Made by a program: the position numbers and the translations under genes. Positions 47,003-52,535 of a stretch of 64,000 nt of DNA are shown one piece after another. This DNA comes from Roseovarius confluentis (lineage in GTDB: Bacteria > Pseudomonadota > Alphaproteobacteria > Rhodobacterales > Rhodobacteraceae): the NCBI RefSeq assembly GCF_002917925.1, contig NZ_PPFE01000007.1, forward strand, positions 124,001 through 188,000. The letters are read 5' to 3'. Positions within the stretch are counted from its first letter, which is position 1; each line of letters opens with the position of its first letter. Below the pieces are notes generated by a model. It was given only the letters and a program-made list of their open reading frames with translations. It did no database searches and was not told where the DNA came from.

Positions 47003-49003
47003 ATGGGGAACGGGATCAGGAAAACATCAGCTTGGGTGATCTCACTGGCGGGCGCCGCTGTCGGGACATTTGCATCGGCCCAAGAGGAGCCGTTCGAGCT
47101 TCCCGAGATCGTTTTGCCACCTGCGGGTGGGGCCGGCCCGATCAGCGAGGCTGCATCGACGAAGCAGGTCATAACTTCCGAAGAGTTCGAGCGGCAGGGC
47201 GCACGTACGCTCGGCGAGGCGCTCGATCTTGCCAACGGCATCAACGTGCGGTTTGGCGGCGACGGGACGCGCCGCATCGATATTCGCGGTCTTCGCACCC
47301 GCCAGGTCCTGCTTCTCGTCGATGGTGTGCCGGTACGTTCCAGTATCGATGGGCAATTCGATCCTGACCGTTTCGCCCTCGGCGGCGTGGACAGGATCGA
47401 AATCACCCGCGGGGCATCGTCCGTGCTGTATGGTCCAGGCGCATCCGCAGGCGTCGTGAACCTGATCACCAAGGACGGTGGCAAAGGCCTTTCCGGCAGT
47501 TTCGGCGTCGCGACGGGCACCGGGGGCACAAACCAGGTTGAAGGCTCCATCGCTTACGGCTCGGATCGTGGCAACCTTCGCTTCAGCGGAACGTGGAGCG
47601 GGCGCGACGACTACCCGCTTTCGGACGATTTCACCGCGACACCGGTTCAACCGAATGGCGACCGGATCAACAGTGACCGAGAAGAGACCAAGCTTTTGGC
47701 AAGTGGCGTCTACCGGCTCAACAGTGACACATCAATCGGGTTCAGTGCGACCTATTCCGAAGGTGAATACGGCAAGCCGCCTTCGATCTATGACCGTGCG
47801 GTCGACGATTTCGCAAGTCGTACGCGGTTCGAGCGTGTCGAGAATTACTCGGTACGCGGCTTTCAGATCGTCGGAACGCACCAGGTCGGAACTCTCACCT
47901 TCACGCCGCGCCTCTATTATTCAGAAGAGCAGGAATTCACGAAGAGCTACGACGACGCCGGCTTCGACACGCAAACTGCCGCGGGGTCTTTCACCGAAGA
48001 CGCGACCAGCACGATCTGGGGAAGCCAGTTGCTCGTGACCTCCGACCTCAACGGCGCAGGTCAACTTTCGGGCATGCTTGGCTATGAGCATCAGGATTGG
48101 TCCGCCAGCGGGATTGAACGAGTCTCCGGCGGCGGCGGTGGAGGCGGCGGAGGCGGTGTAACGCAGCAGCCCATTAACACAAACGCTTCTGCCGAAATAC
48201 TGAGCGCCGGTATCGAATACGAATTTCGCCCCGTCGATCCGCTCGGCCTGGTTGTCGGGCTCGGCTATGCTCAGCAAACTAGGAACGGCCAAACAGATGG
48301 GGACACGTATTACCGCATCGCTGCGACCTACGATCTCGACAGCCAAACCACGCTTCGCGCCCAGCATGCCCGAGAAATCCGATTCCCGACTTTGCGGGAC
48401 CTTTTCGCCGCGGATCGCGGAAACCCGAACCTCGATCCGGAGCGGACACTGCATTACGAGGTCGGCATCGACCGAAGCTTCGCCTTTTGGAACGCGACAC
48501 TGTCCGCAAGCCTCTTTCAGACCGACGCCAAGGACTATATCGAGCGCGGCCCGAGCGGTCTGTCCGAGAACGTCGAGAAGCTACGGATGCGCGGGCTGGA
48601 AATCGACTATCGCGCCTCGCCGATTGAACCCCTGACGGTGGGTCTCGGCTACACATTTCTCGATGCCGAAAACCGCAGTGTTGCCGCGCCTTCCAGAGAT
48701 CTGCAGAACCGGCCGCGGCACAAGTTCGTGCTGTCGGGCAGCTATCGCTTCAACGGCGGGACCCGCATTGATGCACAATATCTCGCGGTTCTGGACAACC
48801 TGACGCTCAACCGCAATGGAACGCAATCTCGAAACGTGGGGGACTTCCATCTGGTCGACCTCGGAGTCACGCACGCGTTCGAAGGACAGAACGCCGAAAT
48901 CTATGGACGTGTCCGCAACCTCTTCGACGAGGATTACCAAGACAGCTACGGGTTCGTGCAGGCCGGGCGGACCTTTCAGGTCGGCGGGCGCATCCGCTTC
49001 TGA
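47003..49003 (+). CDS. TonB-dependent outer membrane receptor
   Basis: A 666-residue receptor. The signal peptide ends SA before QEEPFELPEIVLPP, where LPEIVL is a TonB-box-like stretch. The plug domain follows (TLGEALDLANGINVRFGGDG, VDRIEITRGASSVLYGPGASAGVVNLIT near residues 130-157), then a 22-strand barrel ending in Phe (GGRIRF). It resembles BtuB/CirA-class receptors. An extracellular loop near residue 375 has a run of ten Gly. It imports a ligand using TonB energy. It heads an operon with an ECF-type transporter 13 bp away. Confidence 0.92.
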   Translation: MGNGIRKTSAWVISLAGAAVGTFASAQEEPFELPEIVLPPAGGAGPISEAASTKQVITSEEFERQGARTLGEALDLANGINVRFGGDGTRRIDIRGLRTRQVLLLVDGVPVRSSIDGQFDPDRFALGGVDRIEITRGASSVLYGPGASAGVVNLITKDGGKGLSGSFGVATGTGGTNQVEGSIAYGSDRGNLRFSGTWSGRDDYPLSDDFTATPVQPNGDRINSDREETKLLASGVYRLNSDTSIGFSATYSEGEYGKPPSIYDRAVDDFASRTRFERVENYSVRGFQIVGTHQVGTLTFTPRLYYSEEQEFTKSYDDAGFDTQTAAGSFTEDATSTIWGSQLLVTSDLNGAGQLSGMLGYEHQDWSASGIERVSGGGGGGGGGGVTQQPINTNASAEILSAGIEYEFRPVDPLGLVVGLGYAQQTRNGQTDGDTYYRIAATYDLDSQTTLRAQHAREIRFPTLRDLFAADRGNPNLDPERTLHYEVGIDRSFAFWNATLSASLFQTDAKDYIERGPSGLSENVEKLRMRGLEIDYRASPIEPLTVGLGYTFLDAENRSVAAPSRDLQNRPRHKFVLSGSYRFNGGTRIDAQYLAVLDNLTLNRNGTQSRNVGDFHLVDLGVTHAFEGQNAEIYGRVRNLFDEDYQDSYGFVQAGRTFQVGGRIRF

Positions 49004-49016
49004 GAAAGTGACGGCC

Positions 49017-49568
49017 ATGACAGGGCATTCGGACAAGGGATACATCGGCGGCTTTCGACTGCGCGAGGCGATGTTCCTCACGCTATGTACGGTTTTGCTG
49101 GTAAGCACGAAGATCTTTTTCCGTCTGAAACTGGGCATTCCGGGACACAGCGCGATCTTTCTCGCGTTCTGCCTTGTCCTCGGACGCACGCTGGTGCCGC
49201 GCGGGCTTTCGGCGACGTTCGTGGGCGTTTTGGGTGGCCTGGCCATGATGGCACTCGGGCTGGGCAAGACCGGGCCGCTGGTCCTGCTTCAGACCGGCAT
49301 GGCAGGACTGATGGTCGACGCGCTGGCAGCCCTCGGGTTGACAAGGCAGTTCTGGGGCGCGGCCCTGCTTGGGCTTGCCGCCGGTCTGGGACGCGGACCT
49401 GCGCAACTGGCACAGAACCTTCTGATTGGCATGGATTGGAATCTGGCACTGACCACGGCGGGGCTGAAACTGATCCCCGCGGCAATGTTCGGTTTGCTTG
49501 GCGGGGTTCTGGCCTTTCTCGTGGCACGGCGGCTTGAACGTGGCGGACTATCACCGGGGGTATCATGA
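49017..49568 (+). CDS. ECF transporter S-component-like membrane protein
   Basis: A 183-residue membrane protein with five to six helices, starting MTGHSDKGYIGGF. The size, topology (FLTLCTVLLVSTKIFFRLKLG, then Gly/Ala-rich helices) and place beside ECF ATPase and T genes point to the substrate-binding S component, but it matches no S family I know well, so substrate is open. Its stop overlaps the next start (ATGA). Confidence 0.7.
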   Translation: MTGHSDKGYIGGFRLREAMFLTLCTVLLVSTKIFFRLKLGIPGHSAIFLAFCLVLGRTLVPRGLSATFVGVLGGLAMMALGLGKTGPLVLLQTGMAGLMVDALAALGLTRQFWGAALLGLAAGLGRGPAQLAQNLLIGMDWNLALTTAGLKLIPAAMFGLLGGVLAFLVARRLERGGLSPGVS

Positions 49569-50308
49569 AACACGTCTCACCTCTCGATCCGAGCCTTTTG
49601 CTGATCGGAGTCGAGGATACGGATGTCGAAGGGGCCGAACTTGGCACCGGCAAGATCACGCGGCGGCTGAAGGACGTCCTTCCGACCGGCGCCGAGATGG
49701 TCGGCGTGGTCCGGCATCAGTTCCTGATGGTTCCCGAGATTCCCTACACCTCCTGGAACAGCCCGGCCTGCGCCATCGTGCGCGTGTCCGATCCGTCACT
49801 CGTGCCCGAGGTCGCAAAGGCGACCCGCGACCATGTCCGCGCCCTGGCCTCCAACGGAAGCGATCCGGGCATCTGCCTTGGCCTCGTGCGGGACGTTGCA
49901 CCCCGGGTAATTGAACATGGCGTCGATTGCCGGCGCCGCGTGCTGACGCAGGCCGACGCGATCCGCACCGGCAAAGGCCTGATCCTCGAGGGCCTGGGCG
50001 GCGACAATGGTGGCATAATCGGTGCGCTTGGTGCGGTCGGGCTTACCGCGCACGGCTGGTGCGGACGCTTCATCGAGGTAACGGCGCTGGAAGAGCGGCC
50101 GCTCGACAACTCGGTCGCAGACCTTGCCGAGTGCGGCGTGCGACTGGCCGTGATGGAGCGCGATGCGCCGCCGCCGCTGGATGAAGACCGGGTGATCGTG
50201 CCGGATCAGTTCCGCCCCGTGCTGATCGGCGGCGTCCCGGTTCTGATGGTCCACGAGGCCGCGCCGGGACGATGGGAGACAAAGCCCTGGCCGAAGCGCA
50301 ACCATTGA
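49565..50308 (+). CDS. TiaS-like (tRNA-Ile2 agmatinylcytidine synthetase-like) protein
   Basis: A 247-residue protein resembling the N-terminal half of archaeal TiaS. LLIGVEDTDVEG (residues 12-23) parallels the TiaS GIDDTDxxxG motif; VPEIPYTSWNSPACAIVRV (57-75) parallels its IPYKTRGNGAV segment; GGIIGALGAVGLT (near 148-160) parallels GRGLIGALAAVG. The OB-fold and zinc ribbon of TiaS are absent. In TiaS this region is an ATP-dependent kinase that activates a cytidine for agmatine attachment. Here, inside an uptake operon, it may act on the imported compound instead. Function is inferred. Confidence 0.65.
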   Translation: MKHVSPLDPSLLLIGVEDTDVEGAELGTGKITRRLKDVLPTGAEMVGVVRHQFLMVPEIPYTSWNSPACAIVRVSDPSLVPEVAKATRDHVRALASNGSDPGICLGLVRDVAPRVIEHGVDCRRRVLTQADAIRTGKGLILEGLGGDNGGIIGALGAVGLTAHGWCGRFIEVTALEERPLDNSVADLAECGVRLAVMERDAPPPLDEDRVIVPDQFRPVLIGGVPVLMVHEAAPGRWETKPWPKRNH

Positions 50309-51555
50309 CGGCCGAACTGACGGTCCCGGGCGAGTTGACCTTGGTCGCGGGACCGACCGGGACCGGAAAGACGACGCTTCTTTCCAGAGCGTTGCGCGAC
50401 TGGCGCGCGGCGCACCCGGCACGCTGGCCCGGTGCTGTTCTGCTTGGGCAGAATCCCGCGACACAGCTCGTGGGCGAGACCGTAGAGGAAGAGGTCGCCT
50501 TCGCATTGGTCGCAGCCCAGATGCCGGATGCGGAAATCGCCCGTCGCACGGCCCGCGCTCTCGCGACTTTCGGGCTGGACGACCGCGCCAAAGCCCGAAC
50601 CGACGCTCTTTCTATGGGCTGGAAATGCCGGACACTTCTCGGCGCGCTGCACGCGCTGGAACCCGATGCGCTTTTTCTCGACGAGCCTTACGCACAGTTG
50701 GACGACACCGGGCGGAGGCGGCTCGACGCTGCGATCACCGAATGGCTGGGCCAAGGCCGTGCGGTCGTCGTCAGCGCGGCAGAGGCCCTGGAAACGGTGG
50801 GCGGGTTGCCTTCTGGCCGGACCCGCCTGCTCCATGCCGAGACAGGCCTTCGACCCGAGCCGGATCTTGTGGCCGGCTTTTGCGAAAAGTGGCCCGATCA
50901 CGCCCCCGACACCCCAACAGGGTCTGCAGTTGAGCTACTGTCCTTCACGGCAGGCTACGAAGATACGTCGGCGGTTTTGCGCGACATCGATCTTGTCTTG
51001 CCGCCGGGCTCGATATCCGTGGTCAGCGGTGCAAATGGCTGCGGCAAGTCCACACTTCTGCGCGCGGTCGCCGGCGACATGCCGGCACTCTCGGGCACGC
51101 GGCGCATCCTGGGGCACGACATGGCAGGCGCGGGCAATCTGCCCCGGGAAACCGCGCTTGTTCTGCAAGATCCTGAACTGCACCTGACCGGCCGCACCGT
51201 GCGCGGCGAGATCGAAGTGGCCAGCGCCATTCCGAAACCGGGCGCCGAGACGTGCCTTCGCATCTTCGGTCTCTCGCAGTTCGCCGAGCAGGCTGCCCTT
51301 AACCTGTCACACGGCCAGAAACAGGCGCTGGTTCTGGCCTGCGCGGTTGCATCGATGCCCCGCCTTCTTTTGCTGGACGAGGCCTTTTGCGGGCTGGATG
51401 CCAGCGCTATGGCATCAATACTCTCTGCTCTTCGACGGATCGTGCACCGTACAGGGTTGACGGTCATTGCGGTTACTCACGATCCGCAAGGTCCTGTTCC
51501 GGACTTTGCCGATCGACACCTTCGCATGTCGAACGGGAAACTCATCGATGTCTGA
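50272..51555 (+). CDS. ECF transporter double ATPase (A-A' fusion)
   Basis: A 427-residue protein with two ABC ATPase halves. Half one: Walker A GPTGTGKTT (residues 27-35), Walker B ALFLDEPYAQLD, but a degenerate signature LSMGWKCR. Half two: Walker A SGANGCGKST (near 251-260), signature LSHGQKQALVLACAV, Walker B LLLLDEAFCGLD and VTHD. Fused A-A' subunits occur in several ECF systems. The start overlaps the TiaS-like gene by 37 bp and the end overlaps the T gene by 8 bp. Confidence 0.9.
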   Translation: MGDKALAEAQPLTAELTVPGELTLVAGPTGTGKTTLLSRALRDWRAAHPARWPGAVLLGQNPATQLVGETVEEEVAFALVAAQMPDAEIARRTARALATFGLDDRAKARTDALSMGWKCRTLLGALHALEPDALFLDEPYAQLDDTGRRRLDAAITEWLGQGRAVVVSAAEALETVGGLPSGRTRLLHAETGLRPEPDLVAGFCEKWPDHAPDTPTGSAVELLSFTAGYEDTSAVLRDIDLVLPPGSISVVSGANGCGKSTLLRAVAGDMPALSGTRRILGHDMAGAGNLPRETALVLQDPELHLTGRTVRGEIEVASAIPKPGAETCLRIFGLSQFAEQAALNLSHGQKQALVLACAVASMPRLLLLDEAFCGLDASAMASILSALRRIVHRTGLTVIAVTHDPQGPVPDFADRHLRMSNGKLIDV

Positions 51556-52153
51556 TACGCGCGGGCCTGCCACTGTCTGGACTCGCACACTGTTTCTCTG
51601 GATGGTCGCGCTTGCCATCGCACTGTTCGGCGTTCTGGCACCGGCGACCTGGCTGCCCCTGCTGAGTTTGCTCGCAACCGGACTATTCATCGCAACCGCG
51701 GGGCCAAGGGCCACGCTTCGCGACGCGCGGCCGTTGGCGTGGCATGCGCCTGTTCTGCTGCTCGGCATGCTGATCGTGAACGGCAGGGTCGACTGGGCCT
51801 TGGCGCTGGAAATCTCGGTCCGGTTCATGCTGACGGCCATGCCGATCTTCTGGCTGCATCGGCTGACGGCCCCGACCCACCTCTTGACGCTGTTTGAGCG
51901 CGTACTGCCGTTCAGGCTTCGGCTCATCCTCCTTTTTGCCCTTCGGATTTGGCCACTGCTATTGCGTGACATGAGGGACATCCTCCTCGTCGCCCGGTTA
52001 AGCGGCACTTGGCCCGCCCGCCTGCGCGACGTCCGACCGCGCCACTTCGTTCATGCGCCCGGACGCATCATGATGCCCCTCGGGGTGAGAGCGATCCGTC
52101 TTTCCGACGATATGGCCCGCAGTCTCGAGGCGCGCGGCCTGGATCAATTGTGA
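51548..52153 (+). CDS. ECF transporter T component (CbiQ/EcfT-like)
   Basis: A 201-residue membrane protein with about five helices, starting MSDTRGPATVW. The C-terminal MARSLEARGLD is the EcfT coupling motif (two short Ala-Arg-Ser/Gly motifs that contact the ATPases), preceded by FALRIWPLLLRDM. It links S and A subunits. It is the last gene of the operon. Confidence 0.88.
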   Translation: MSDTRGPATVWTRTLFLWMVALAIALFGVLAPATWLPLLSLLATGLFIATAGPRATLRDARPLAWHAPVLLLGMLIVNGRVDWALALEISVRFMLTAMPIFWLHRLTAPTHLLTLFERVLPFRLRLILLFALRIWPLLLRDMRDILLVARLSGTWPARLRDVRPRHFVHAPGRIMMPLGVRAIRLSDDMARSLEARGLDQL

Positions 52154-52270: not shown

Positions 52271-52535
52271 TTAGTGCATGACTGGCCTTGGGTCCATCTG
52301 GACGATGGTTTCCGGGGCCGGTGGGCGTTAGCCCAGAGCACTGCGAGGGCGTTTTGTGTTGTAGTGTTTCCTCCATTCTTCGATCAGGATTTGGGCTTCT
52401 CGCAGGCTGTAGAAGACTTCACCATTCAAGAACTCATCGCGGACCCGGGCATCGATGACATTGCCTGAGTTCAGCTTCCTATCTATGCGGATGGCCAGAC
52501 ATTCTCGGCTGTATTCAACGATGATGTTGAGCGTG
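52271..52535 (-). pseudogene. Remnant IS3-family transposase (internal deletion and stop)
   Basis: The minus strand reads HTLNIIVEYSRECLAIRID, then RDEFLNGEVFYSLREAQIL, then EEWRKHYNTKRPRSALG and RPPAPETIVQMDPRPVMH. These are the middle and end of an IS3-type (IS407 group) DDE transposase. About 60 residues with the catalytic centre are missing in frame, and a TAA (52328-52330) replaces the expected Tyr codon. No complete ends seen. The flanks 52154-52270 and 52536-52645 hold nothing else I recognise. Confidence 0.75.

Follow-up and report, generated by a model that had tools for sequence, protein, structure and literature searches.

TiaS, the tRNA-Ile2 2-agmatinylcytidine synthetase, has a TCKD domain that acts on cytidine, and its FLD, OB and Zn-ribbon domains are the tRNA-binding parts. 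In the salvage of alpha-ribazole by CblT/CblS, an S component of the energy-coupling factor (ECF) type goes together with a kinase whose substrate is the compound imported. In the available parts of the articles concerned, TCKD is described as a kinase domain specific for RNA and protein (PMC11938285), BtuM as an S-type vitamin B12 transporter that functions in the absence of an ECF module (PMC6072759), and TupABC and WtpABC (PMC13197769) as well as TupABC and ModABC (PMC13328260) as ATP-binding cassette (ABC) systems for oxyanions of tungsten and molybdenum, none of which is described there with a TonB receptor. Among the matches listed from the open-access literature, as far as their available parts go, there is neither a TiaS-like protein joined to a transporter nor any TonB/ECF uptake of tungsten or molybdenum, subscription literature being mostly outside this scope. 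The present work deals with a stretch of 64,000 nucleotides from Roseovarius confluentis (the window) and with an operon in it that encodes a TiaS-like protein together with a TonB-dependent receptor and the S (putative), fused A-A' and T components of an ECF transporter. Related operons were compared in other genomes, above all in one genus, here called g257, of which 77 genomes were examined (G and L numbers designate genomes and loci). In g257, the operon is tied by a palindrome and by its neighbourhood to tupABC and to fdhD/DUF3305, which is a new association.

A TiaS-like protein among transport genes

Profile comparisons identify the 247-aa protein as a true TCKD homologue without the other domains of TiaS. 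Searched alone, it gives weak matches (TiaS 5e-3, Mmp11 2e-3), with a score of 15 bits against a TiaS cut-off of 600. A profile built from eight relatives finds the structures of TiaS (3e-9) and a 252-aa protein, PDB 3u02, presumably from Pyrococcus (1e-8); with 15 relatives, the values are 1e-6 and about 7e-8. The TiaS and Mmp11 (TIGR03280) models are matched by all 15 relatives at 0.01 or better (best values 6e-9 for TiaS and 4e-11 for Mmp11), and Pfam TiaS_TCKD by four of them, the protein of the window not being one of the four. The TCKD domain covers about residues 12-165, with homology to TiaS over about 155 residues. The match stops at position 157 of the 422 of TiaS, and the FLD, OB and Zn parts are absent from the protein. 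In the searches made, no family was matched by the approximately 80 residues beyond the domain, and the protein of the window leaves positions 1-134 of the Mmp11 model unmatched. The preliminary description of this DNA had proposed a TCKD-type domain deprived of tRNA-binding parts, to be checked by profile comparison with TiaS; the comparison recovered TiaS and the proposal stands.

Among the residues invariant in all 15 proteins are D18 T19 D20, G27 T28 G29, Y61 T62, N65, D100 P101 G102, G145 G146 and I152 G153 A154 (window numbering). T28 aligns in the profile alignment opposite Thr18 of TiaS, which we take to be the autophosphorylated residue, a result said to go back to Terasaka in 2011. 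An AlphaFold model of the protein alone had a predicted local distance difference test (pLDDT) value of 36 and was not used.

Among the 15 loci of the TiaS-like alignment, the gene accompanies S in 10, an S-like gene in three and an ABC importer of the FecCD/BtuC type (class II) in two. The co-occurrence with S that had been proposed from the window was thus recovered in other genomes, and the case for it is carried by the ten loci with S proper, not by the three S-like ones. The full set of five genes is present in nine of the 15 loci (window, L006, L012, L026-L031), and L070 is an additional one outside the 15. In L014, the genes for A-A', T, S and the TiaS-like protein are present with no adjoining TonB gene, whereas L013 and L032 each combine an S-like, a TonB and a TiaS-like gene with no adjoining A-A' or T; elsewhere in the genomes of these two (G588 and G862), the best A-A' candidates score no better than 3e-19 and match over one half. 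The S-like proteins of L013 and L032 are likely, not certain, relatives of S, as judged from an hhalign comparison with ten other S proteins (101 columns, probability 52%, E 1.5e-4). In Pimelobacter (L005), an S-like gene is divergent from the TiaS-like gene and its product matches over 44 columns (probability 33%, E 5e-4). This locus is a 3.8-kb circular "plasmid" record that may be an assembly fragment. In two haloarchaeal plasmids (Natribaculum), the TiaS-like gene is divergent from genes for a binding protein, a permease and an ATPase.

Palindrome and tungsten/molybdenum genes in g257

The TiaS-like gene is carried by 49 of the 77 g257 genomes, including G1080, where it is in three pieces (G1080:C1:1725324-1726044). 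Upstream regions were compared for eight operons, seven from g257 and L012 of G518. The palindrome GGACAWWWTGTCC is found upstream of six of the eight with at most one mismatch, the remaining sites having two (L028) or three (L027). It lies 131-141 bp from the called start in six operons, 78 bp from it in L031 and 111 bp in L027. The L070 operon is also preceded by a palindrome with one mismatch. Over the eight whole genomes, there are 13 exact sites, versus four for the reversed control. Four of the 13 lie upstream of the operon and another five in the interval separating fdhD from DUF3305; those of L043 and L045 lie within a coding gene of the formate dehydrogenase cluster and were not counted as functional places. 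The fdhD-DUF3305 interval holds the palindrome with at most one mismatch in all seven g257 operon genomes compared, two of them through one-mismatch sites; for G518, the site at the operon is the only one seen, the fdhD region being outside the comparison. FdhD, DUF3305 and DUF3306 were recognised from Pfam matches in L035 and from blastp matches in L057 and L058; elsewhere they were assigned by eye. In the same way, the interval between tupA and the gene of a sigma-54 response regulator contains a palindrome whose best copy has one mismatch in three of four genomes and two in the fourth, and a second palindrome with one or two mismatches lies 81-82 bp from the first in all four.

The neighbourhood points in the same direction. 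The operon is usually located 10-20 kb from a tupABC-mobA-mobB/moeA-moaA locus (in L065, TupA, TupB, MobA, MobB-MoeA and MoaA were identified and TupC was assigned by position), and, of the 39 carriers with both genes on a single contig, 36 have TupA no more than 20 kb away from the TiaS-like gene. A regulator with HTH_17 and PBP_like domains, which shows a below-cut-off similarity to part of a model for a molybdopterin biosynthesis protein, is present in every carrier (49/49, in two pieces in G1036) versus 10 of the 28 non-carriers, a fragment in G1060 and a weak match in G1091 being scored as absence. This PBP-like regulator is encoded after fdhD in G843, G791, G852 and G567, and divergently from the operon in G817 (directly) and in G727 and G771 (with a regulator of the sigma-54 type between). 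Two regulator-positive non-carriers, G834 and G1086, have kept A-A' with a one-mismatch palindrome upstream (L066 5896-7296; L069 8716-10077), and no match to S, T, TonB or TiaS-like genes was found around it within the 19 kb fetched. The locus taken from another non-carrier (L068 of G1038) ended short of the operon's place.

The palindrome is a candidate operator. The PBP-like regulator was considered as its binder and set aside. Because palindromes occur at tupA in G1055, where this regulator was not found, the sigma-54 regulator beside tupABC appears to be the better candidate.

Two side observations concern the surroundings of the operon. A gene for a sigma-54 type regulator lies directly upstream of the TonB gene in L060 (530-2011) and L061 (4737-6185); the L060 copy is 26% identical overall to the tup-linked response regulator, and both end in a near-identical SRKTxDRK helix. 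A YhhQ-like gene, which we take to encode a queuosine-precursor transporter, is found near the place of the operon (L014 13367-14026; L066 10217-10885; L067 10295-10975), with or without the full operon; it keeps its place in G834 and G1055, which lack the full set.

Components of the operon and its setting in the window

The five open reading frames are intact, and their order and overlaps, as first described, were confirmed when the coordinates were rechecked. The TonB and S genes are separated by 13 bp, and the overlaps are 4 bp (S/TiaS-like), 37 bp (TiaS-like/A-A') and 8 bp (A-A'/T). The earlier view of a transport operon spanning both membranes is upheld as well.

Features of the operon (47003-52153 of the window) and of the DNA directly downstream
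Feature	Positions	Strand	Length	Basis
TonB-dependent outer-membrane receptor, BtuB-like	47003..49003	+	666 aa	Pfam Plug 8e-24, barrel 5e-35
Putative ECF S component, LGIPGH motif	49017..49568	+	183 aa	Context, size, predicted helices
TiaS-like protein, TCKD kinase-type domain and ~80 further residues	49565..50308	+	247 aa	Profile matches
Fused A-A' ECF ATPase	50272..51555	+	427 aa	Pfam ABC_tran, two stretches
T component, EcfT/CbiQ type, ATG start at 51548	51548..52153	+	201 aa	Alignment-to-PDB match
Transposase remnant	about 52328..52462	-		Translation only

Both Pfam matches of the TonB receptor are above their cut-offs. A run of 10 Gly occupies residues 376-385 of the receptor of the window, and a Gly or Gly-Ser stretch is found in the barrel of 10 of 11 receptors (window, L006, L012, L013, L026-L030 and L032, not L031). 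The best models for A-A' are those of ECF ATPases (4e-48, below model cut-off). The T component alone has no Pfam match, reaches just 0.09 with the CbiQ model and, like the other members of its nine-row alignment (9/9), has no NCBIfam match at 0.01; the alignment itself matches EcfT in the PDB at 1.1e-6. The S component is a putative one, assigned from its setting rather than from a family match. G43 and H44 are invariant in 12 aligned S proteins. The preliminary description had named a match of S to a known substrate family, combined with absence of the TiaS-like gene from the homologous loci, as a refutation; this did not occur. S matched no known substrate family, one of the 12 relatives matched PF09819 (ABC_cobalt) at 7e-4, and a PDB sequence search of the S relatives gave no match. 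A single-sequence AlphaFold model of S is helical and weak (pLDDT 60), and Foldseek with this weak model returned nothing at E 0.001 or better.

Among 292 sampled genomes of the order of the window, the TiaS-like query gave three matches at E 0.001, its own genome and two weak ones. The latter, G055 (E 3e-4, two stops) and G009 (E 8e-4, unmatched in the profile search), were not counted. The 10 other genomes listed for the same genus gave no TiaS-like match. A close copy of the operon exists in Alloyangia mangrovi, with a TiaS-like protein 88% identical. The contig-wide scan for relatives used the lone protein of the window as query and gave one relative, hence the few relatives named here; the profile search scored the best six candidates per genome where more existed, so that misses are possible. 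Viral contigs yielded no relative. Plasmids yielded the same three records with three TiaS-like queries and no match with S. In this lineage, the operon is patchy and probably a horizontally gained block. The transposase remnant, presumably of the IS3 type, is a possible trace of the arrival of this block.

The tungsten link is indirect for the genome of the window itself. In this genome, a TupA-type gene is followed immediately by one for a regulator distantly related to the PBP-like one (27-30% identity); close by are a binding protein of the molybdate type and, as judged by eye, an ABC system of the FecCD type. By eye, two of its loci (L062 and L063) contain FecCD-type ABC importers beside TupA/ModA-type genes and PBP-like regulators; these are candidate tungsten or molybdenum importers of another type.

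Candidate cargo and comparison with known systems

A possible explanation, and the one that we tentatively favour, is that the operon encodes a dedicated two-membrane importer of a scarce compound supplying tungsten or molybdenum to enzymes of the formate dehydrogenase type. The palindrome and neighbourhood shared in g257 suggest that the cargo serves the supply of the tungsten/molybdenum cofactor for formate dehydrogenase, with the palindrome perhaps acting as the common operator. The maintenance of TupABC in carriers suggests that an organic form is likelier than tungstate, and the cargo could be a complex of the metal with an organic ligand or a fragment of the pterin cofactor. It would be taken through the outer membrane by the BtuB-like TonB receptor and, if transport runs inwards as we suppose, moved through the inner membrane by S with T and A-A', or perhaps by S alone where T and A-A' do not adjoin. 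In the cytoplasm, the TiaS-like protein would phosphorylate the cargo, or the ligand of the cargo, at the expense of ATP, which could trap the cargo, release the metal or ready the cargo for cofactor assembly. The copy of the window may play the same role. If this importer exists, the TCKD kinase fold would gain a role outside tRNA, there would be a handle on Mmp11 of methanogens, and tungsten or molybdenum would have an outer-membrane route to formate dehydrogenases, which are enzymes of interest for CO2 reduction. With its 49 carriers among 77 genomes, g257 makes this reading directly testable.

A wider proposal is doubtful on present evidence. The tungsten/molybdenum pterin cofactor, a pterin piece or an organic metal complex would be salvaged from the environment, imported by the TonB and ECF parts and phosphorylated by the TCKD protein, and TiaS, Mmp11 and the family of the window would represent offshoots of a single ancient small-molecule/RNA carbonyl kinase fold. 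A pterin resembles cytosine in containing a pyrimidinone ring. Cofactor salvage would then be a function of this fold not described before.

Several observations weigh against an importer for tungsten or molybdenum. In the window and in L006, L013 and L032, the DNA upstream of the operon shows no palindrome (best candidates with 3-4 mismatches, four in the window). Two exact sites, not counted as functional, lie elsewhere: one near the gene for the small subunit of a NiFe hydrogenase in G843 (L042) and one beside another TonB-type gene (L044). The palindrome at tupA is also present in G1055, which has neither the TiaS-like gene nor the PBP-like regulator. TupA is encoded by all 49 carriers and 23 of the 28 non-carriers, so that plain tungstate already has a route; a replacement of TupABC by the operon is ruled out by the same count. 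The Fisher value of 8e-11 for the co-occurrence of regulator and TiaS-like gene ignores kinship and is uncorrected for phylogeny. Furthermore, an alignment of four TonB receptors has BtuB as its best PDB match (1.5e-39, next family 6e-32), and the permease of L004, one of the haloarchaeal loci, has BtuC (7.6e-69) and other FecCD types as best models, below cut-off.

The last two points favour the main rival, an importer of corrinoids (vitamin B12 or a cobamide precursor) in which the TCKD protein would be a salvage kinase for a corrinoid or its lower-ligand nucleoside, in principle comparable to the CblT/CblS pathway. The BtuM precedent (PMC6072759, available part) may apply in G588 and G862, where neither A-A' nor T adjoins S and no close A-A' was found, and the ABC_cobalt match of one S relative also fits. 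However, the BtuB and BtuC scores stay under the curated B12 cut-offs (143.7 bits against 599.7 for the receptor of the window and BtuB), the Rfam scan of the window and 14 loci found no riboswitch, cobalamin riboswitches included, and the palindrome and neighbours in g257 are those of tungsten/molybdenum and formate dehydrogenase genes. A corrinoid cargo seems rather unlikely.

We consider still less likely an importer of nickel, cobalt or another metal chelate common to hydrogenase and formate dehydrogenase, with a TCKD protein that processes the chelator or is regulatory. It would agree with the invariant G43-H44 of S, with the same ABC_cobalt match and with the exact palindrome near the hydrogenase gene of G843, but this site is just one of 13, and both the conserved neighbourhood, with its tungstate and molybdenum-cofactor genes, and the similarity of the PBP-like regulator to a domain of a molybdopterin biosynthesis protein speak against it.

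The preliminary description favoured the import of a nucleoside-like or cofactor-like compound modified after entry by the TiaS-like protein. Modification after entry would be equally part of an importer for tungsten or molybdenum, and a cofactor-like cargo is possible; the nucleoside part, with phosphorylation at a cytosine-like base, found no support and is improbable. TCKD acts on cytidine in TiaS and the threonine aligned to Thr18 is invariant, which would suit a nucleoside. The sole hint of a nucleoside-like cargo is the YhhQ-like gene, which several g257 genomes have at a distance of a few genes from the operon, but this gene keeps its place in genomes without the full operon, and the shared palindrome points elsewhere (no systematic search for nucleoside genes was made). 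To our knowledge, TonB is not usually needed for nucleosides. Finally, an ordinary ECF operon carrying an unrelated enzyme gene by chance would fit the patchy distribution (one strong match among the 292 genomes of the order, and two weak) but is very improbable and largely refuted by the conserved association, since the TiaS-like/S pair recurs in several distant lineages with differing gene orders.

The closest known systems resemble the operon in part. The TiaS-like family shares with TiaS the D-T-D, Y-T..N, P-G and I-G-A motifs and an equivalent of Thr18 in 15 of 15 proteins; it differs in having no FLD, OB and Zn parts and in occurring beside transporters, mostly in bacteria. Mmp11 and the 3u02 protein have the same TCKD-type domain. 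As in the BtuM/BtuB uptake of vitamin B12 in Gram-negatives, a TonB receptor is associated with an inner-membrane protein of the S type, which in places lacks an adjoining ECF module, whereas the system of the window adds a kinase-type gene, its S component has no PDB sequence match and, in one genus, its neighbourhood is that of tungsten and molybdenum genes. Compared with CblT/CblS, the kinase belongs to another family, and there are a TonB receptor and likely another cargo. With TupABC, the operon has in common the palindrome and the neighbourhood in g257, whereas TupABC is an ABC importer with a periplasmic binding protein, without TonB or kinase, and coexists with the operon.

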